Virus record (IMG/VR): IMGVR_UViG_3300009128_000157
Span: 1-21,286 of that record
Length of the DNA stretch: 21,286 bases
Strand: one strand, 5' to 3'
Origin: a virus
Position numbers and translations under genes: made by a program. Each line of letters starts with the position of its first letter. The stretch's first letter is position 1. This document shows positions 7,201-20,325 of this stretch, piece by piece. The notes beneath the pieces are model-generated. The model saw only the letters and a program-made list of their open reading frames with translations. It did no database searches and was not told the DNA's origin.

Positions 7201-9080
7201 TAAGGCGCTCCCCCCATCATCGAAAGCCCCGCATTTCCGCCGGGAAGAGCCTGGGCCTGGGCCTGCGGGCCCGCTGGAGCGGCCTTCCGCGCAGGGCCCG
7301 TGAAGGATCGGCCGTAGCTTGCGGCGCTACCCACATCCAGGGAGAGCCGGGGCTGTTCCTGCTGCCCTCCGTCCTGGAAGGGGACAGCCTCCAGAGCTGC
7401 CTGGTTGTCCACCAGGCCCGCGAGATCAGGTAGGTCGAAAGCCTGCGCGGCCATGTCATCCACTCGCTCCCAGTCGATGAAGGGCATCATCGGTCGGAGC
7501 TGGGCAGTCTGGAGCAACCAATTCAGGCCAGCTTGCGCCTGGGCCGCCATCGCCTGCTGGTCTGCGCGTTGCATCGAGTAGGCCTCGATCTCAAGCTCCA
7601 GGTCGTCGAACTGAGCGTCCGGGTCGTCCATGCCACCATGGAACCAGGGCTCCTCCATCTCAAAGTCGTCCGCCGCATCTTCGCCCAGAGGGAATACCAC
7701 TCGGCTATCGTGGTACATGAACCAGGCCGCCTTCTCGAGCACGCCCTTCGTCACGCCATCAGCGAATTGCTGCCGCAGGTAGGCCAACCGGGACATCGCG
7801 CTCTCGTTGGCGATGGAATGCTCCGTCGCTGTCCCCAGGCCCGTCACGTTCCCCTGCTGGGCCTCGTCCATGGCCGATACCCGGTTCAGGCGATCCATCA
7901 GGTAGGCGGTCTGCTTGTATTGGACATCCGTGACCCCACCAATCTCGGCCTCGGCATACTTCGCCCTATCGAATCCGGGGATGCCGATAAAATGGTCGTG
8001 CCTCGCCTTCTTGATTCGATTGGCCGTGGCCTGGTCTCGAGCCTCGTACAGCAGGACCCGCTTATGCTTCTCCGCGCTCCTTGAGATCGCGCGGGCGTGG
8101 CGGTTCACCTCGCGCACCTGGCCCTCGACGGCCACCAGCGGGCCCAGGGGCATCAGTGCGTTCGGGAGCGTGTAGGCCCCCCAAACGTGATACGGGCCGG
8201 TGGGCGGGCCGAAATAAGGCTCCGGGCGCTTCACCTCTCGCCACTTGCCCCGGGGACCACGCCCCTGAGCACGGGCCAACGTCAGCATCGTGCCGTGATA
8301 GCCCTCATCCGGGCCCTCGTCGGCCTTGCCGACAAACAGCTCGGGAACCCAGATCGTTATCAACTCAAGCTCCGGCTTGGGCGATTGGCGCGGGTCGTTC
8401 TGCCGGAACACGTCCGATTGTTGGGGGCTCCCGCCCTCGGTGCCGACCCCACGCGCCAACTCTTCGACCGCCTTGGCGTCCCAGGCCTCTCCACGCTTGG
8501 CCTCGGCCAGGAGCGTGTCCGGCGCCGCATACCAGACATGGCCCATGTAGTCCGCTCGGTCCAGAGTGAGGGCCGAACTATCCAGGATGAATTGAGGCTG
8601 GGGGATGCGATAGGCGGCAGGCCACAGGCTCTTGGGCTTGTCTACGCGAATAGATCCGTCCTTTGCCCACACCCATTTCTCAGCGGTCTTCCCCATCCAG
8701 CGGTTCGGAATCTGGCGGACCATCGAGACCCCCCAGGTGTAGCAGTAATCCACCGCGATCTGCTGCCCCGTGCGGCGTAGATTCACATCGCGCACCCAGC
8801 GGTTCAGGCCGTGACGAATTGCCTCGGCTGTCTCTATCTGGCTTCCCGGGCGCCTGGTCGTGCAGCGCACCTTCGGGTTGTCGAACATCAGGCGCGAGAC
8901 CATCAGCGACGTGTATGCGTGATAGTGATTCTCGGGCATGTAGGGCCCCAGCTTGCCGCGTGAGTAATGCGGCCCAGCAGCTCCCGAGACCATCGTTTCC
9001 ATGGCGTACAGGTGGTCGTCTCGGAACCGCTCGTCGGCCTCGAGGCGCTCCGGCCACGCCTTCATGTCCAGGTAGTCCAT
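7200..9080 (-). CDS. portal protein
   Basis: A 626-residue protein directly after TerL, the usual portal place. The N-terminal part shows a portal-like helical entry (MDYLDMKAWPERLEADERF), then YTSLMVSRLMFDNPKVRC and a Tyr-Trp-rich block (VDYCYTWGVSMVRQIPNRW). A long helical region follows at about 330-470 with REVNRHARAISRSAEKHKR and MDRLNRVSAMDEAQQGNVTG, typical of podovirus/siphovirus portals that form the dodecameric DNA channel. The C-terminal 50 residues are Gln/Pro/Ala/Gly-rich and disordered. I chose the ATG at 9080 because it overlaps the TerL stop as TGATG and follows GGGGGAA; an upstream GTG at 9098 is possible. Length is within the usual range. Confidence 0.8.
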   Translation of the reverse strand: MDYLDMKAWPERLEADERFRDDHLYAMETMVSGAAGPHYSRGKLGPYMPENHYHAYTSLMVSRLMFDNPKVRCTTRRPGSQIETAEAIRHGLNRWVRDVNLRRTGQQIAVDYCYTWGVSMVRQIPNRWMGKTAEKWVWAKDGSIRVDKPKSLWPAAYRIPQPQFILDSSALTLDRADYMGHVWYAAPDTLLAEAKRGEAWDAKAVEELARGVGTEGGSPQQSDVFRQNDPRQSPKPELELITIWVPELFVGKADEGPDEGYHGTMLTLARAQGRGPRGKWREVKRPEPYFGPPTGPYHVWGAYTLPNALMPLGPLVAVEGQVREVNRHARAISRSAEKHKRVLLYEARDQATANRIKKARHDHFIGIPGFDRAKYAEAEIGGVTDVQYKQTAYLMDRLNRVSAMDEAQQGNVTGLGTATEHSIANESAMSRLAYLRQQFADGVTKGVLEKAAWFMYHDSRVVFPLGEDAADDFEMEEPWFHGGMDDPDAQFDDLELEIEAYSMQRADQQAMAAQAQAGLNWLLQTAQLRPMMPFIDWERVDDMAAQAFDLPDLAGLVDNQAALEAVPFQDGGQQEQPRLSLDVGSAASYGRSFTGPARKAAPAGPQAQAQALPGGNAGLSMMGGAP

Positions 9081-10612
9081 CAGATCAGATTCCCCCACTC
9101 ATCAAAGTCCGAAACGGGGAGCAGGGCCTCGTCCTCGGTGTCCTCGTCGAATTCTTCCCAGGCTTGCTTGTGATCCAGCACATCACCCATGCTGCCGGGG
9201 ACGTAGCCAACCCCCCGCTTATCGGAGAGGTCGCGCCCCCAGCGCCAACGGGCAGCATAGATCATGGCAAAGCACCCATCATCCGGCCCCGGCTCGCTTT
9301 CCTCCTTCGTGGGCTGGCCGTCCTTGGCCAACTTCCAGGTGAAGTCGGGGATCTCCTGCTCCGTGCATGTGGGCTGGAGATCTCCGAGGGAGACCGGGCA
9401 GGGCCCATCTTCCATCGCATCGTGGCAAAGCAAGATGCGGTCCTCTCGGAGCAAGTCGCCCACTAGGTTGAAGCCAGCCAGGCGGCTTCCAGGACCTTTC
9501 TCTGTGGCGATCACCAGAGGGTCCTCCTCCCGGCCTCCGAGTGGGCCCAGGCGGTCGTTCAGGTAGTCGATGAGGGCGATGCCCTGGCCGCCCCCGTCCG
9601 CGACGATCCGCTCCATGTTCCAGCGGTCGAGCTGGCGCTCAATGGCTCCGGCCCACCATTCAATGCCCATCTCCCGGCGATGCACCTCCGCGACTCGCAC
9701 CATCCGGTTTTCAATGCAGCCCCACACCTGCAAAACCCCAGCGTGCCGAGTCCCGAAGTCCAAGCTCCCGAAATACCACTCGAACCGATAACCCTGGCTG
9801 GGGTCCTTCGGGTCCCAAAGGAAGTCCCGGCGCCAGGCCATGTGCTTGCGCTCGTCCCAGGCCTCCCAGATCTGCCCCTCGCTCGAGACCCAAAGCCCGT
9901 CCCGCAGGCGAGCACGGCGGGCGCCCGTCAGCGCATCGAGCGCGGCCTGGTCGTCCTCGTCGAAGATCGGGTTGTCCGAGTGCCGGGCCTTGATACGGCG
10001 CATCTTCCCGCCCAAGGCCCGCTGGTTGAGCCAATGGTTGCGGGCGCCAGGGTTGCAGTCCGCAATCAACTGGCGGAAGAAGCGGGGGCGCCCATCTGAG
10101 AACTGCCCAATCTGGAACCGCTTGTTCCTCGAACGGGTGAGGAGCTTCTCCCACTCGTCGAGCTGCCCCTCTGTGGCCTCGAAGTAGACGATGATGTCGT
10201 ATTCGGTGGACATCACCCGGTCGGGGTTGTCCATCCCCCCCAGCACGATCTCGCACTCGGTCGGCTCGTAGTAGTACCGATCCCGGTTCTCGCGCTGGGC
10301 AGTCCCCACCTTGCAGGGATGGTCATGCGGGATGACATGCTGCTCCCATGTCACAAGGACAGACTGCGTGAGGCTCTTCCTGGTCTTCCGCACCCAGAGC
10401 ATCCGCAGCCCACGGATCTCGGGGTCCTCCATCAACATCCGGCACTTCTCCAAGACCGTGCGAGACTTGCCTGTGTTGGCGGGGCCCTCATACAACACCT
10501 CCCTCTCGGTCGAAAGGATCAGGTCCGCAGAGGCTCCGTGTGCCTCGAAGCGCGGGCGTTCGAGGGCCGGAGGTGTCACGACCCGGGGCGACCTATCAAG
10601 GGCATCCGGCAC
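9080..10612 (-). CDS. terL: terminase large subunit (TerL), ATPase-nuclease
   Basis: A 510-residue packaging motor. The N-terminal ATPase shows a Walker A loop GPANTGKS (residues 43-50), a Walker B-like strand DIIVYFE ending at Glu145, and a coupling motif ADCNPGARNHW (184-194). The C-terminal RNase-H-like nuclease shows acidic residues at Asp285 (SLDFG), Asp339 (IVADGGG) and Asp444/445 (PDDG). It translocates DNA into the prohead through the portal and cuts concatemers. The start is GTG at 10612, 14 bases downstream of the preceding stop, without a clear ribosome site; an internal GTG at residue 12 is an alternative. The stop overlaps the portal ATG. Confidence 0.93.
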   Translation of the reverse strand: MPDALDRSPRVVTPPALERPRFEAHGASADLILSTEREVLYEGPANTGKSRTVLEKCRMLMEDPEIRGLRMLWVRKTRKSLTQSVLVTWEQHVIPHDHPCKVGTAQRENRDRYYYEPTECEIVLGGMDNPDRVMSTEYDIIVYFEATEGQLDEWEKLLTRSRNKRFQIGQFSDGRPRFFRQLIADCNPGARNHWLNQRALGGKMRRIKARHSDNPIFDEDDQAALDALTGARRARLRDGLWVSSEGQIWEAWDERKHMAWRRDFLWDPKDPSQGYRFEWYFGSLDFGTRHAGVLQVWGCIENRMVRVAEVHRREMGIEWWAGAIERQLDRWNMERIVADGGGQGIALIDYLNDRLGPLGGREEDPLVIATEKGPGSRLAGFNLVGDLLREDRILLCHDAMEDGPCPVSLGDLQPTCTEQEIPDFTWKLAKDGQPTKEESEPGPDDGCFAMIYAARWRWGRDLSDKRGVGYVPGSMGDVLDHKQAWEEFDEDTEDEALLPVSDFDEWGNLI

Positions 10613-14054: not shown

Positions 14055-14681
14055 CTATTCGGTTTCAGCGTCCACAATACGGGGCCTGGTGGCCTCAAAC
14101 CTGGCACGCAGCGCATCCGATAGCGATATCCGCTTGCCGGAATCGTCCACCAGGACCACATCCTTCCCGCCGTCGGCACGCTCCCCGCCCTCGGCCTCGA
14201 GCACCTGGAGCTGCTCCGCGACCCGCAGCGTAGTGGCCTTGCAATAACGTCTGACGACGACGGGGATGGGCTCGCGGGTCACCTCGTCGATTTTGAGCCT
14301 TGGGACGAGCTTCACCGGCTGGCCCTCGGCGTCGAGCACCGGATCGCCCGAGGCATCGCGCATGGGGTCGAGGATCGGCTGACCGTCTGGGTGGCGGTCG
14401 AGTTCGTGGACCACACGGCCATTGTGCGTTTGGGTCTCCTGAAACCCATTGAGGGCCACGTCGGCCAGGCGCTCGATCAGCTTGCGCCGAAAGCGGGCCC
14501 GGTGCTGCTCCAGGACGAAGGCCACGTCGGCCCGGAGCTCAGGGTCCCGGGACATCCAATCGCGGAGCGTGCGGGCCGAGAGCCCAACCTGGTCCGCAGC
14601 GGCCTGCCGGTCGCCGGTTTCCTGGAGGGCGGCGAGGAAAGCCTCCTGAGCTGTGGCGTGATCCGTAAGCCTGTCAGTCAT
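14055..14681 (-). CDS. terS: terminase small subunit (TerS), HTH type
   Basis: A 208-residue protein that starts the virion operon. Residues of about 10-45 form a helix-turn-helix typical of small terminases: AQEAFLAALQETGDRQAAAD, then GLSARTLRDWMSRDPELRAD. Long helices rich in Arg and Glu follow (about 58-80, FRRKLIERLADVALNGFQET), usual for the oligomerisation domain. The C-terminal half contains a repetitive Asp/Pro/Gly segment (about 92-125), PRLKIDEVTREPIPVVVRRY and a final acidic tail. TerS rings recognise the packaging site and load TerL. It is separated from TerL by six appendage genes, which is unusual. No dedicated ribosome site is strong; the ATG at 14681 is the first. Confidence 0.75.
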   Translation of the reverse strand: MTDRLTDHATAQEAFLAALQETGDRQAAADQVGLSARTLRDWMSRDPELRADVAFVLEQHRARFRRKLIERLADVALNGFQETQTHNGRVVHELDRHPDGQPILDPMRDASGDPVLDAEGQPVKLVPRLKIDEVTREPIPVVVRRYCKATTLRVAEQLQVLEAEGGERADGGKDVVLVDDSGKRISLSDALRARFEATRPRIVDAETE

Positions 14682-14813: not shown

Positions 14814-15206
14814 ATGAAAGAGACAAGGATTGCCCATCTGGGCCGATATGCCACAGAGAGGCTCTGGCAAGACATGGAGAGGCTGCTGAAGGCGGATAAC
14901 CTGAACACCGCGCAGTTCTACGCGAAGTGCCTGCGGAACGCTCTCCTGCCCGAAGAGGTCAGCCTGGAAGAGGTCTCGCAGGCTAAGATTCGCCATTTGG
15001 AGTCCGTCGCGCACGCCCGCTACGAGGAGATCGAGCGACTGGAGACAGAACTCGCGGCGGCGCAGGCGGCTGGCGGCAACGCGGCGAAGATGGCCGCTCT
15101 GCTGCTCGAGATTGGCCAAGACGAGAGGAGTAAGCTGTGGCAGGGCCTGCGGGAGGAGATCGAGGCCGTGCTGCACGCTGACACCACCGAGGAGGTGAAG
15201 CCGTGA
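14814..15206 (+). CDS. coiled-coil protein opening the plus-strand operon, unknown function
   Basis: A 130-residue, mostly helical protein. Its ATG has the best ribosome site of the block (AGGAG, seven bases upstream). Residues 1-50 contain YATERLWQDMERLLKADNLN, resembling an amphipathic helix; residues 55-88 form a coiled-coil-like stretch rich in Glu and Ala with heptad-like Leu/Ile spacing. The C-terminus runs HADTTEEVKP and its last codons form the ribosome site of the next gene. There is no signal peptide or membrane segment. I do not recognise the family. A small regulator or nucleic-acid-associated protein at the head of an early operon is plausible but unproven. Confidence 0.6.
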   Translation: MKETRIAHLGRYATERLWQDMERLLKADNLNTAQFYAKCLRNALLPEEVSLEEVSQAKIRHLESVAHARYEEIERLETELAAAQAAGGNAAKMAALLLEIGQDERSKLWQGLREEIEAVLHADTTEEVKP

Positions 15207-15207
15207 G
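15189..15207 (+). repeat. junction linker 1
   Basis: GAGGAGGTGAAGCCGTGAG. This 19-base unit carries the ribosome site (GGAGGTGA), the overlapped stop/start GTGA and the last codons (E-E-V-K-P) of the upstream gene. Three close copies follow at later junctions. Confidence 0.8.
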
Positions 15208-15442
15208 CCGCGAAGAACTGCACGAGTTCGCCGCTGAGATCCGCGACCACCTCCAGCGCATCATGGACGGTGCGCAAGAGATTGAGGGCAACCTCGAAGA
15301 GGCGGAAGAGTCACGCGAGGAGGGACACCTCGGCGCAGCCGATGTGCTGGCTTTCTTCGGGGACGACTCCCTGGCCGACGTTGAGGGCGGCCTTCTCGAC
15401 TTGCGGGAGAGTCTTCGGGCCCTCGTGGAGGTGAAGCCGTGA
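15203..15442 (+). CDS. 79-residue acidic helical protein, unknown function
   Basis: Starts with GTG at 15203, overlapping the upstream stop by four bases (GTGA). Residues 1-40 form a very acidic helix (EELHEFAAEIRDHL, EIEGNLEEAEESREE) followed by GHLGAADVLAFFGDDSLADV and a second helix. It ends in LVEVKP, the junction peptide. There are no Cys residues, no signal and no membrane span. About a quarter of residues are Glu or Asp, which could mark a DNA-mimic or protein-binding small phage protein, but that is speculation. Translation depends on the embedded ribosome site in linker 1. Confidence 0.6.
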   Translation: MSREELHEFAAEIRDHLQRIMDGAQEIEGNLEEAEESREEGHLGAADVLAFFGDDSLADVEGGLLDLRESLRALVEVKP

Positions 15443-15443
15443 G
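15425..15443 (+). repeat. junction linker 2
   Basis: GTGGAGGTGAAGCCGTGAG differs from linker 1 at one base (A to T at its second position). It encodes V-E-V-K-P at the end of the 79-residue gene and starts the zinc-binding-type gene with GTG. Confidence 0.8.
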
Positions 15444-15726
15444 CGGCCCCGTTGGTCTGCTGATCCCTCACTTGCCCCACCGGGTGCCCACGGACGGGCG
15501 GACCACGTGCCTATGGCACCGCTCCTGGGAGCACTACATGAGGTGGCACGCCCCCTACAGTCGCCGCTGCGACCTGTGCGGCGGCAGGACCGGCGACCAC
15601 CGGGCCGCCCGACATGAGCTGTGCAGGCTCCGGGCGCAGAGGGGCATCCACCCCCTGCCCGTGATCGACAACGTGAGCCAGTGCTACTGTGCTGACTGCC
15701 GTGCTGCCGAGGAGGTGACGCCGTGA
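15439..15726 (+). CDS. 95-residue protein with two CxxC pairs, zinc-binding type
   Basis: Starts with GTG at 15439 in linker 2. Residues 44-47 (C-D-L-C) and 84-87 (C-A-D-C) form two CxxC knuckles about 37 residues apart, with further Cys at 24, 62 and 82 and His at 54, 59 and 71. Such spacing fits a treble-clef or zinc-ribbon fold that binds one or two zinc ions. The N-terminus has a Trp-rich segment (CLWHRSWEHYMRWH). Small zinc proteins of this kind in phage early operons often bind nucleic acid or a host enzyme. No named family was recognised. The end AAEEVTP is the junction peptide. Confidence 0.6.
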   Translation: MSGPVGLLIPHLPHRVPTDGRTTCLWHRSWEHYMRWHAPYSRRCDLCGGRTGDHRAARHELCRLRAQRGIHPLPVIDNVSQCYCADCRAAEEVTP

Positions 15727-15727
15727 G
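15709..15727 (+). repeat. junction linker 3
   Basis: GAGGAGGTGACGCCGTGAG differs from linker 1 at one base (A to C), changing the encoded end to E-E-V-T-P. The stop/start overlap GTGA is kept. Confidence 0.8.
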
Positions 15728-16028
15728 TGCCCACACCCCCGGGCCGTGGAGGGTCGTCCCTCCCATGCGGGCGTATCACGCCTGCATCCAGGCCCAGACC
15801 GCCGAGGGCAAGCTGGCGGTGGCCGACATCCCTGAATGCTTCGGGGCCGAGGACAGCAACGCCAAGCTGATCGCCGCCGCGCCTCAACTGCTGGAGGCCC
15901 TGCGAAACCTGGACGACTTCTGCCGCCTTGCCGTGGACGCTGGGCAGCTCCACCCCGACGAGGTGGAGTGGCGGCTGATCGAGTCCCGCGAGGCCCTCGC
16001 CGCCGCCCGCGAGGAGGCGAAGCCGTGA
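15723..16028 (+). CDS. conserved small phage protein (TPGPW ... LIAAAPxLLEAL type)
   Basis: A 101-residue protein with two signatures that recur together in many tailed phages: an N-terminal HTPGPW (residues 4-9) and, about 40 residues later, NAKLIAAAPQLLEAL (46-60), after an acidic turn (GAEDSN). The C-terminal third is a helix ending REEAKP, which is the junction peptide. The family is well known as a phage hypothetical; its biochemical function is not established as far as I know. The start is GTG at 15723 in linker 3, with an embedded ribosome site. Three Cys residues are present but not in a zinc pattern. Confidence 0.8.
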   Translation: MSAHTPGPWRVVPPMRAYHACIQAQTAEGKLAVADIPECFGAEDSNAKLIAAAPQLLEALRNLDDFCRLAVDAGQLHPDEVEWRLIESREALAAAREEAKP

Positions 16029-16029
16029 C
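16011..16029 (+). repeat. junction linker 4
   Basis: GAGGAGGCGAAGCCGTGAC differs from linker 1 at two bases, one of which converts the core GGAGGTGA to GGAGGCGA. It encodes E-E-A-K-P and starts the 29-residue membrane peptide with GTG. Confidence 0.75.
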
Positions 16030-16114
16030 CACCCTGGGGTGGCTTTCGATGATGCTCCTGTGTTGGGCCGTGGCGAGGTGCCTCGCCTGGTGCCTCGGGG
16101 AGGGCGAGCGATGA
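16025..16114 (+). CDS. 29-residue single-span membrane peptide
   Basis: GTG at 16025 overlaps the upstream stop in linker 4, and the stop overlaps the next ATG (ATGA), so both ends are fixed by coupling. The peptide is almost entirely hydrophobic: a Trp/Leu/Met-rich core (residues 4-24, LGWLSMMLLCWAVARCLAW) with three Cys and a short charged end GEGER. It would insert in the inner membrane with the tail inside or outside unclear. Such micropeptides in phage operons can be antiholins, host-membrane modulators or superinfection factors; none of these can be shown here. Confidence 0.6.
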   Translation: MTTLGWLSMMLLCWAVARCLAWCLGEGER

Positions 16115-16350
16115 GCGGGCCAGCCCGTGAACTCCAGGCTCTCGTTGGCAAGCAGGTTGCCATCCCCCTGAACCGCCGGAGTGGCAACGCCCACGCCTGG
16201 GGCACCGTGGTGGCGTGCCGCGAGGCGTTTGGGCGGCAGGAGATCCTCGTCGAACTTCGCCCCCCGGCTGGCTGGGGGGAGCTGTGGGTCACGAAATGGG
16301 CCCTCGTCGAGGCTCTGGCTTGCGAGGAGCCGCCTGATCCGCCACCGTAG
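16111..16350 (+). CDS. 79-residue beta-barrel-like small protein, unknown function
   Basis: Starts with ATG at 16111 (ATGA overlap; GAGGGCGAG upstream). The middle resembles an SH3-like or small beta-barrel: LVGKQVAIPLN, AWGTVVACREAFG, EILVELRPP, GELWVTKWALVEAL. The C-terminus is acidic and Pro-rich (EEPPDPPP). Strand-turn-strand spacing with a conserved Gly after the first strand is compatible with a nucleic-acid or protein-binding barrel, but no family is recognised. The gene lies four bases before the lipoprotein gene and shares its transcript. The single-copy linker pattern stops here: this gene does not end in the EEVKP peptide. Confidence 0.55.
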   Translation: MSGPARELQALVGKQVAIPLNRRSGNAHAWGTVVACREAFGRQEILVELRPPAGWGELWVTKWALVEALACEEPPDPPP

Positions 16351-16354
16351 GGAC

Positions 16355-16753
16355 ATGAAACCCACCCAGAGATTGATTATGGGGCTCGCGGCGCTCGGCG
16401 TTGCGGGCCTTTCTTCATGCGTGACGAGTGGCGACCTGGAGAGGCTCGAAGCGGCCCACAGGGACTACCAGGAGGCGCAGAGCGCGGCCCTGGAGGAGCT
16501 GCGCGAGGAGGCCATTAGTGCCGACGAGTACGAGGAGCGCACCGAGACTGCCTTCGACAACCTCAAGGAGGAGTTAGGCGAGACCATCGACACGGTGGAG
16601 GCCCGCACCGAGGCGGCGCTCACCGCTGGCACGTCGACGGGCTCCCCGCTCCTCGACATGGGGCTCACGGCGCTGACGGGCGCGATGGCCGGGGCCCTGG
16701 GACTCAACGCCCATCGCAACCGACGCCGGAAGGACCGGGGGGAGACCGTCTGA
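16355..16753 (+). CDS. u-spanin candidate (lipoprotein with C-terminal membrane anchor)
   Basis: A 132-residue protein, close to the length of phage T1 u-spanin gp11. Residues 1-22 are a lipoprotein signal: basic start, hydrophobic core, lipobox L-S-S-C with Cys22. Residues 27-88 are an acidic coiled coil (LERLEAAHRDYQEAQSAAL and following). Residues 99-117 (LLDMGLTALTGAMAGALGL) form a membrane span, followed by RNRRRKDR. An outer-membrane lipid anchor linked through a periplasmic coil to an inner-membrane anchor is the u-spanin plan for fusing the two membranes in the last lysis step. The ATG follows TAGGGAC. A holin-like gene lies further along the operon, but no endolysin was found. Confidence 0.65.
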   Translation: MKPTQRLIMGLAALGVAGLSSCVTSGDLERLEAAHRDYQEAQSAALEELREEAISADEYEERTETAFDNLKEELGETIDTVEARTEAALTAGTSTGSPLLDMGLTALTGAMAGALGLNAHRNRRRKDRGETV

Positions 16754-16833
16754 TGCCCAAGAAGAAGTGCAAAGGCAAAGGCAAAGGCAAGGGCAAGGGC
16801 AGCAAGGGATACCGAGGCCAACGCGAGACATGA
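16753..16833 (+). CDS. 26-residue Lys-Gly micropeptide
   Basis: ATG at 16753 overlaps the upstream stop (TGATG), with GGGGGGAG eight bases upstream; its stop overlaps the next ATG (ATGA). The peptide starts MPKKKC, continues with five K-G pairs, then SKGYRGQRET. Eleven of 26 residues are Lys or Arg. Coupling at both ends and a strong ribosome site make translation likely. No fold is expected. A role in binding nucleic acid, lipid A or other polyanions is conceivable from charge alone. The hexamer repeat could also expand or contract by slippage. Confidence 0.6.
   Translation: MPKKKCKGKGKGKGKGSKGYRGQRET
16771..16800 (+). repeat. five tandem AARGGC hexamers
   Basis: Three AAAGGC units followed by two AAGGGC units encode (Lys-Gly)5 in the micropeptide gene. 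The synonymous change from AAA to AAG between units suggests the repeat is held at protein level. Confidence 0.85.
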
Positions 16834-18830: not shown

Positions 18831-19124
18831 CTAGAGAGAAATCCATTCTCGCCAATCATCGACGGAATGGTCATGAATTCGGCTGTGGCAAAGGAAACAC
18901 AGCCAGGCGCGGTTGTCCGTGGTGTGGCGGCCCCCCCTAGAGCGAGGCCGCCGGTGGTGGGCATGGACGCGACGGCGCCGGAGACATCTCTCGCACCTCT
19001 CGGGCGGGTCGGCCCGGAACGCCTGGAGCTCGTCGGCCTCCCGAAGTGCTCGAGCGCCGACCTTGCGGAGGTAGGTCGCTCGCTTTCGCATGGGGGAGCG
19101 GCGCAGGGGCTTGGTGGGCTTCAC
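18831..19124 (-). CDS. HNH endonuclease
   Basis: A 97-residue protein with GTG start at 19124, directly after the methyltransferase stop (TGAGTG) and after GGGGGGCGG. The N-terminus is very basic (residues 1-27). A zinc pair C44-E-R-C47 leads into HAHH (54-57), the Gly-rich RSRGG turn, Asn71, and C76-F-L-C79-H80, with a final His84. This is a complete ββα-metal HNH motif with a Cys4-type zinc knuckle. Small phage HNH proteins nick DNA in packaging, replication or homing. The downstream position after a methyltransferase gene hints at a linked modification and cutting function, but no restriction activity is shown. Confidence 0.85.
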   Translation of the reverse strand: MKPTKPLRRSPMRKRATYLRKVGARALREADELQAFRADPPERCERCLRRRRVHAHHRRPRSRGGRHTTDNRAWLCFLCHSRIHDHSVDDWREWISL

Positions 19125-19922
19125 TCACCGCCCCCCTGCCCGCTGGATGAGGAGGCGCAGCGCAGCCTCGGCCTGAGCGGGGACGACGGCGTTTCCGAGA
19201 CAGCGGAGCCGGTCGGTGCGGAACTCCATCGCGGCGGAAAGTTCATCAGCCACTCCACGAAGGCGGGGTTCAAGCGCCGGCCAGCACCACTCGGGGACGC
19301 CGCTCCAGTCGGCGGAAGGTCCCGGGGGCCAAGTGTCGAGTCCGACTCCGTCCGAGAAGGTCTTGGCCAAGTCGACGCCACCTCCCCGATGTTCCCCGTG
19401 GGCCAACACGAACACCCGCTCTCGGCGGTGGGGAGCTCCGACCTCGGACGCTCGTACACACGACCATTCCGCATCGAACCCGAGGTCGGCCAGTCCTCCC
19501 AGGAGTCGTCCAAGCCCATCCCCGGCAACGAAGCCTCGGACGTTTTCCACGAAGACGAGCCCGGGTCCCACTTCGCCAACCACCCGAAGGAACTCGTCGA
19601 TGAGGTCGCGTTCGTCTTCGCCGCGCTTCTGCTTTCCGGCGACCGAGTGCGGCTGGCACGGGATGCCTCCAGCGACGATGTCCACCAGGCCACGAAACGG
19701 CCCTCCATCGAAGGCGGACAGATCATCGAGAACAGGCGCGCAGCCCAGGGCCTCGTCTTCCATCCTCGCCAGGAGGACGGCTCGGCCCTCTTGGGCGTAG
19801 GCGTCCCGCTCGACGTAGCCCACAGGGCGGGCTCCGAGGACGCGCTCGAGGGCGAGGTCCAGGCCCCCGATTCCTGAGCACACCGAGAGGAGAGTTGGCC
19901 GGGGATCAGAATGCTCACTCAC
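19125..19922 (-). CDS. DNA C5-cytosine methyltransferase
   Basis: A 265-residue enzyme using S-adenosylmethionine to methylate cytosine at C5. Motif I is LLSVCSGIGGLDLA (11-24), motif IV GGIPCQPHS with catalytic Cys89, motif VI VFVENV (123-128), motif VIII PHRRERVFVL (164-173) and motif X CLGNAVVP (241-248). The target-recognition region between about 175 and 235 is short, as in compact phage enzymes. GTG at 19922 is chosen: an upstream purine run and an eight-base overlap with the previous gene fit, and it places motif I near residue 11; longer starts are less likely. The likely role is protecting phage DNA from host restriction. Confidence 0.9.
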   Translation of the reverse strand: MSEHSDPRPTLLSVCSGIGGLDLALERVLGARPVGYVERDAYAQEGRAVLLARMEDEALGCAPVLDDLSAFDGGPFRGLVDIVAGGIPCQPHSVAGKQKRGEDERDLIDEFLRVVGEVGPGLVFVENVRGFVAGDGLGRLLGGLADLGFDAEWSCVRASEVGAPHRRERVFVLAHGEHRGGGVDLAKTFSDGVGLDTWPPGPSADWSGVPEWCWPALEPRLRGVADELSAAMEFRTDRLRCLGNAVVPAQAEAALRLLIQRAGGR

Positions 19923-20325
19923 CGCCCTCCCCCTCCGGGGGCTCGGGGGCCTCGTCAGCCACGCGGTCAAGAGGCGGTTCGTCGAGCATCTCAACCATCC
20001 TCTCACGCAGCGACTGCGCCGCGATAGCCATCTCGTCTAGCTGTGAGGCTACCCCGGCGATGTCGATGTTATCTGTAGGGGTGCAGCGCATCAGGGCAAG
20101 TCCTTGAGCTGCGCCTTGAAGAGCGGCAAGATCACCCGAAGCACAGAGCAGGCGTTGGCGAAGGCGTTTCAGAGCGTTGCCCCCTTGCGATCCCGGCCCA
20201 GCTTCATCGAGCCCATCCATCACCTCCAGGGCACACTCAGCCATGCGGATCACCGATGGCCGCGAGGCGCACTCTCGAATCGAGGTCAAGCAGGCCAGCA
20301 CTTCATGCCGCTGCATGTCGGTCAT
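19915..20325 (-). CDS. 136-residue helical protein, unknown function
   Basis: Starts at the ATG at 20325, a few bases after the upstream stop, with GGAGATG further up; a longer in-frame reading to 20553 would overlap the neighbour and shows the low-complexity composition of a shadow. The sequence is mainly helical with Leu/Ala/Arg spacing (residues 3-35 and 55-85) and a final acidic, Pro-rich tail (PPLDRVADEAPEPPEGEGGE). Four Cys residues are scattered. No known motif is recognised. It lies between the PGVYLYR-type protein and the methyltransferase and is probably co-translated with both. A small accessory replication protein is possible from context only. Confidence 0.5.
   Translation of the reverse strand: MTDMQRHEVLACLTSIRECASRPSVIRMAECALEVMDGLDEAGPGSQGGNALKRLRQRLLCASGDLAALQGAAQGLALMRCTPTDNIDIAGVASQLDEMAIAAQSLRERMVEMLDEPPLDRVADEAPEPPEGEGGE

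Follow-up and report, generated by a model that had tools for sequence, protein, structure and literature searches.

The window, as the whole 21,286-base stretch analysed here is called, is an IMG/VR virus record from an uncultivated bacterial virus. A plus-strand array of small genes, whose direction of transcription leads away from the minus-strand structural block and its neighbouring terminase small subunit, contains four copies of a 19-nt repeat, termed the linker, at consecutive gene junctions. The terminase genes, array genes and linkers are as follows (SD, Shine-Dalgarno sequence).

9080–10612, minus strand: terminase large subunit (TerL; phrog_2, E 4e-29), which served to find the lineage of the window
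14055–14681, minus strand: terminase small subunit (TerS; phrog_4044, E 2e-5), divergent from the array and bounding the structural block
14814–15206, plus strand: gene 1, 130 aa, first in the array; ATG start with an ordinary non-overlapping SD; no family
15189–15207, plus strand: linker 1, GAGGAGGTGAAGCCGTGAG; end of gene 1 (EEVKP*), SD AGGAGGTGA, GTGA overlap and start of gene 2
15203–15442, plus strand: gene 2, 79 aa; no family
15425–15443, plus strand: linker 2, GTGGAGGTGAAGCCGTGAG; end of gene 2 (VEVKP*) and start of gene 3
15439–15726, plus strand: gene 3, 95 aa; several Cys/His pairs (CDLCGG, CYCADC); no family
15709–15727, plus strand: linker 3, GAGGAGGTGACGCCGTGAG; end of gene 3 (EEVTP*) and start of gene 4
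15723–16028, plus strand: gene 4, 101 aa; 'HTPGPW ... NAKLIAAAPQLLEAL' family, phrog_1273 (unknown function)
16011–16029, plus strand: linker 4, GAGGAGGCGAAGCCGTGAC; end of gene 4 (EEAKP*) and start of ORF 5
16025–16114, plus strand: ORF 5, 29 aa; hydrophobic; doubtful as a gene
16111–16350, plus strand: gene 6, 79 aa; ATGA overlap start, with a degenerate linker only

Against named phages, TerL gives distant matches only (Streptomyces, Thermobifida and haloviral terminases), and TerS and gene 4 give no match. Within IMG/VR, no relatives of gene 3 were found, and a search with gene 4 returned only six distant matches. The window, a record that is possibly a fragment, yielded neither an integrase nor any lambdoid gene, and no tRNA lies within it. 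Elsewhere on the minus strand are an SU10-type adaptor protein in the structural block (2071–2814; PF24175, E 1.5e-14) and an HNH endonuclease (18831–19124; PF01844, E 5e-9) directly adjoining a C-5 cytosine DNA methylase gene (19125–20006; PF00145, E 3e-26). Just after the array, the plus strand encodes a small predicted lipoprotein (16355–16753; signal with LSSC, no family), possibly near lysis genes, and right after it a short lysine-glycine repeat (MPKKKCKGKGKGKGK..., 16753–16830, plus strand).

The four copies of the 19-mer GAGGAGGTGAAGCCGTGAG begin at 15189, 15425, 15709 and 16011 and carry 0, 1, 1 and 2 mismatches, respectively, exactly where the original prediction had placed four near-identical linkers; 0.02 such repeats are expected by chance in dinucleotide shuffles, and no fifth copy with three or fewer mismatches occurs on either strand of the whole window. 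Read in frame, each linker supplies the last codons and TGA of one gene, overlapping the GTG of the next. All four comprise a near-perfect SD (AGGAGGTGA or a close variant, AGGAGGTGA being the complement of the 16S 3' end), a spacer and the GTGA stop/start overlap. The same prediction had assigned a ribosome site, the overlap and the last upstream codons to every copy, and a shared C-terminal peptide to the proteins; both descriptions are accurate, the gene ends reading EEVKP*, VEVKP*, EEVTP* and EEAKP*. At the fifth junction, an ATGA at 16111 (GGGGAGGGCGAGCGATGAG) belongs to what is at most a degenerate linker copy. The minus-strand structural genes lack copies of the linker, and the minus-strand starts inspected have other, variable upstream sequences; among the gene starts inspected in the window, the repeat at the ribosome-binding-site (RBS) position is confined to non-structural genes. 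RNA structure at the linkers is no more stable than in shuffled sequences (z -0.7 to 1.3). The anatomy of translational coupling, with an SD inside the upstream gene and a stop/start overlap, is present in 4/4 linkers, and a joint fused in this way would be expected to couple the translation of each gene to that of the next.

The SD and the GTGA overlap account for ~12–13 of the 19 linker bases. At about two thirds of the repeat, this share favours a purely functional account, in which the joint is simply the best translational-coupling signal for the phage and its host: genes would enter by illegitimate recombination at gene ends, selection would retain or re-evolve the joint, and the linkers would mark exchange points rather than cause them. 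This main rival to the reading developed below is considered possible but doubtful. It is opposed by the diversity of spacers at coupled junctions that have this SD in bacteria and other phages, even within one genome. In an IMG/VR scan for the same SD and overlap with the 4-nt spacer left free, spacers varied widely, and the most frequent ones, which include AGCC, occurred at 4/86 junctions, a count that leaves out seven listed contigs already obtained via the AGCC scan. The window spacers read AGCC, AGCC, CGCC and AGCC; four spacers drawn from the 86 natural phage junctions agree to within one mismatch with P ~1.5e-4, or 9e-4 if the draw is made from GC-rich phages only.

A scan for the exact 17-mer contrasts with this diversity: 65/120 IMG/VR loci hold 2–8 almost identical copies, all on one strand inside 4 kb, and 1/120 bacterial loci is multi-copy. 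At least three alike junctions with unrelated flanks occur at 0/117 bacterial loci and at 3/96, 0/112 and 3/74 loci in three phage samples. For non-homologous junctions, at least six of seven spacer positions are equal in 10.1% of within-locus pairs versus 0.85% of pairs between loci; the corresponding count for bacterial within-locus pairs is 0/40. Comparison of the viral and bacterial loci indicates that repeated linkers are a habit of some phages and not general to coupled genes. A general RBS habit as the sole cause was ruled out by the bacterial and random-phage controls.

The linker of the window also occurs in a separate phage group of 33 contigs (group A) with arrays of small genes; these contigs, like all sequences compared here, are uncultivated assemblies. 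The motif pattern of gene 4, 'HTPGPW ... NAKLIAAAPQLLEAL', recurs in group A cassettes, and one group A cassette family, searched against named phages, gave no match. The same small genes appear in different orders among the contigs. Members of an 88-aa family have different flanks in L047, L051, L093 and L101, one gene end precedes 8 different genes, and one gene start comes after 12. With a kept neighbour defined by at least 80% identity, 197 linker pairs between contigs kept one neighbour and changed the other and 35 kept both, counts that are not independent; the contigs of this group and of group B (below) were chosen by motif, which forces about one linker copy per contig. Identity across group A linkers drops from ~0.9–0.97 to ~0.3. 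Of the blastn block ends in the array regions, 35% have a linker no more than 5 nt away in both contigs, where 7% would be expected; left ends gather where the linker begins and right ends where it finishes or a little beyond, suggesting that the exchanged block is mostly linker-gene-linker. Mis-assembly at short repeats is an unlikely source of the permuted arrays, because identical gene neighbours are found together in separate contigs (35 orthologous junction pairs) and a 17-bp repeat falls below usual assembly k-mers.

A second group (group B; L007, L043, L005, L082, L149 and others) carries a related linker, AAGGAGGCCAAGCCGTGAG, in up to eight copies per locus, frequently joining genes whose coiled-coil-like segments are related. 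In a third, small set of contigs (L034, L138, L214), the joint mixes GGAGGYGAAGCCGTGA and ...AAGCGATGA forms. Neighbours change at 79% of linkers versus 51% of non-linker boundaries in group A (p 0.001); the group B figures, 79% and 72%, do not differ significantly (p 0.42). That non-linker boundaries of the same phages so often change neighbours (51% and 72%) is a point in favour of the purely functional joint. Within the linker, the 3' half goes with the downstream gene in group A (p 0.004) and with the upstream gene in group B (p 0.008); the spread of switch points was rejected as proof of crossing-over, being inconsistent between the two groups.

Codon usage indicates what is conserved in the joint. 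The linker Lys codon is AAG in 109/109 group A and 74/80 group B linkers, compared with 69% and 55%, respectively, in the array gene bodies, which implies conservation of the DNA and not only of the C-terminal peptide. Selection on a common C-terminal peptide (EVKP), which might serve protein stability, would make gene ends alike, and unrelated proteins do have alike ends here. This synonymous-codon fixation speaks against a C-terminal tag, however, and the SD and start codon belong to the same linker unit, so that peptide selection is extremely improbable as an explanation.

The array genes had been predicted to be unrelated, which holds for most pairs; genes 2 and 4 are weakly similar, with 42% over 36 residues and a blastp E of 0.002 when seven proteins were compared, apparently in their C-terminal parts. 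Some arrays of groups A and B likewise contain several members of one family. Both observations would suit tandem duplication of gene and linker, after which the proteins diverged past recognition while selection held the linker. Most genes within an array are nevertheless mutually unrelated, and identical genes occur in different neighbourhoods of different phages, an arrangement not yielded by in-place duplication; an origin of this kind is very unlikely. Group A proteins have common end segments such as AIAKAEEVKP, and these, with the similarity of genes 2 and 4, hint that gene ends may be exchanged besides whole genes.

TerL of the window, used alone as a query in IMG/VR, found no relatives; an alignment of two TerL sequences, the second from a contig originally found by its linker (L070, also recovered as L505), found 74. 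Three of these TerL relatives repeat a linker, each in its own variant: GGAGGTG[AC]AGCCGTGA and a close variant in G001, GGAGGTGCAAGCATGA (three exact copies, one with a change) and GGAGGTGAGCGCATGA (two copies) in G018, and [CG]GAGGTG[CG]AGGCATGA in G016. Across six genomes of the window lineage, linkers are uniform within genomes (label permutation p 0.006). Relatives that differ in spacer, yet are each uniform internally, are a further argument against a purely functional joint.

The closest relatives, G016 and G017, are 67% (TerL), 61% (portal) and 59% (capsid) identical to the window and have none of its array genes. Compared with each other, they share 98.8% identity along a 9.2-kb stretch that runs as far as the promoter region and opening codons (MKNKIKI) of the first array gene. 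Past these codons the two arrays are completely different, and both keep GAGGT..AGGCATGA-type joints. The region concerned is as follows.

L561 12621–13320, with the matching part of L562 (reverse complement): abrupt divergence of the two 98.8%-identical relatives

The array of the window lineage is replaced wholesale, whereas its type of joint persists. No single-gene swap at a linker was caught among the window-lineage relatives. None of the relatives found has its array genes in the order of the window, so the same order without linker similarity was not encountered. The original prediction of interchangeable cassettes recombining at linkers is borne out in part: gene content between kept linkers clearly varies in other phages with the same linker, where the group A pairs (197 versus 35) reflect gene-by-gene reshuffling, but the window lineage displays whole-array replacement only. 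Genome comparison thus leaves cassette exchange at linkers well supported across phages, and the support for the window itself is indirect.

The reading favoured here, with a probability of roughly 0.6, is that the linker is a standard gene-to-gene joint and that small accessory genes are gained and lost as gene + linker units with breakpoints at the linker. Such a joint combines the last codons, a near-perfect SD, a fixed spacer and the GTGA overlap. Because the joints of an array are near-identical, each gene with its linker would be self-contained, and could be inserted, removed or reordered without breaking the translation of its neighbours. The linker would then act like a standard connector for interchangeable parts, small genes being swapped one by one exactly there. 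Gain and loss of these units would most likely proceed via short-homology annealing at the joint by phage recombinases of the RecT/Erf type. This annealing would also hold the linkers of one genome uniform, and it may have exchanged genes in the window as well. More tentatively, the genome-specific joint could make genes plug-and-play, with annealases exchanging them at the ~17-bp coding joint, within and between lineages, at no dedicated recombinase site.

Candidate enzymes for this route were found in several of the phages: RecT in G027 and G028 (group B) and in G018 (window lineage), and Erf in G029 (group A). Neither was present in the other contigs tested, many of which are fragments, and no recombinase was identified in the window. 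The minimum homology reported for Red and RecA is ~30 bp (PMC2327257). The window repeat, at 16–19 bp, is shorter than this, which again favours the purely functional joint. Conserved stretches beside some linkers (AIAKAEEVKP-type ends in group A) may lengthen the effective homology, and under the favoured reading the linker itself would drive recombination.

These observations bear on the old question of how phages shuffle single small genes with polycistronic translation left intact. The linker is also of practical use as a marker by which small accessory phage genes can be found; it may be conjectured that many such genes are host-takeover or counter-defence factors. The literature search, mostly outside subscription journals, turned up no earlier account of this linker.

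Three known systems invite comparison. Ordinary coupled junctions, with an SD inside the upstream gene and an ATGA or GTGA overlap, equal the window linker in anatomy, but their spacer is not common within a genome. Closer in distribution are the Start Associated Sequences (SAS) of cluster K mycobacteriophages (PMC3203893) and cluster EF Microbacterium phages (PMC7302621), which are 13 bp long, have the consensus GGGATAGGAGCCC or GGGAAAGGACCCC and lie 3–7 bp before the start codon, mostly ATG. Like the window linker, SAS are repeats that occupy the RBS position of numerous unrelated non-structural genes; structural genes lack them, and SAS conservation exceeds 16S pairing (PMC3203893, PMC7302621). 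The window linker departs from the SAS consensus in both sequence and position, and SAS do not form an in-frame stop/start joint. Neither report (PMC3203893, PMC7302621) maps breakpoints to SAS, and their interpretation as translation signals (PMC3203893) is in keeping with a purely functional joint.

The conserved short boundary (linker) sequences of lambdoid phages (Susskind and Botstein 1978; Clark et al. 2001, HK620; cited in PMC3029335 and PMC2327257) are described there as short conserved sequences beside exchangeable segments and as proposed recombination points, a description that the window linker shares. As in those systems, a short sequence is conserved here between different genes of related phages, and gene content varies between kept linkers, gene by gene in group A and as whole arrays in the window lineage. 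Set against the lambdoid linkers as they are described in these citing papers, the window joint lies in coding sequence and includes an SD and a stop/start overlap, and joints of its type are repeated between single small genes of one genome, in unrelated uncultivated phages. The difference from both boundary sequences and SAS is a coding stop/start joint that is repeated between single genes and to which breakpoints are mapped. Since this joint is repeated, searchable and coincident with breakpoints, it allows linker-dependent and linker-independent exchange to be compared directly.
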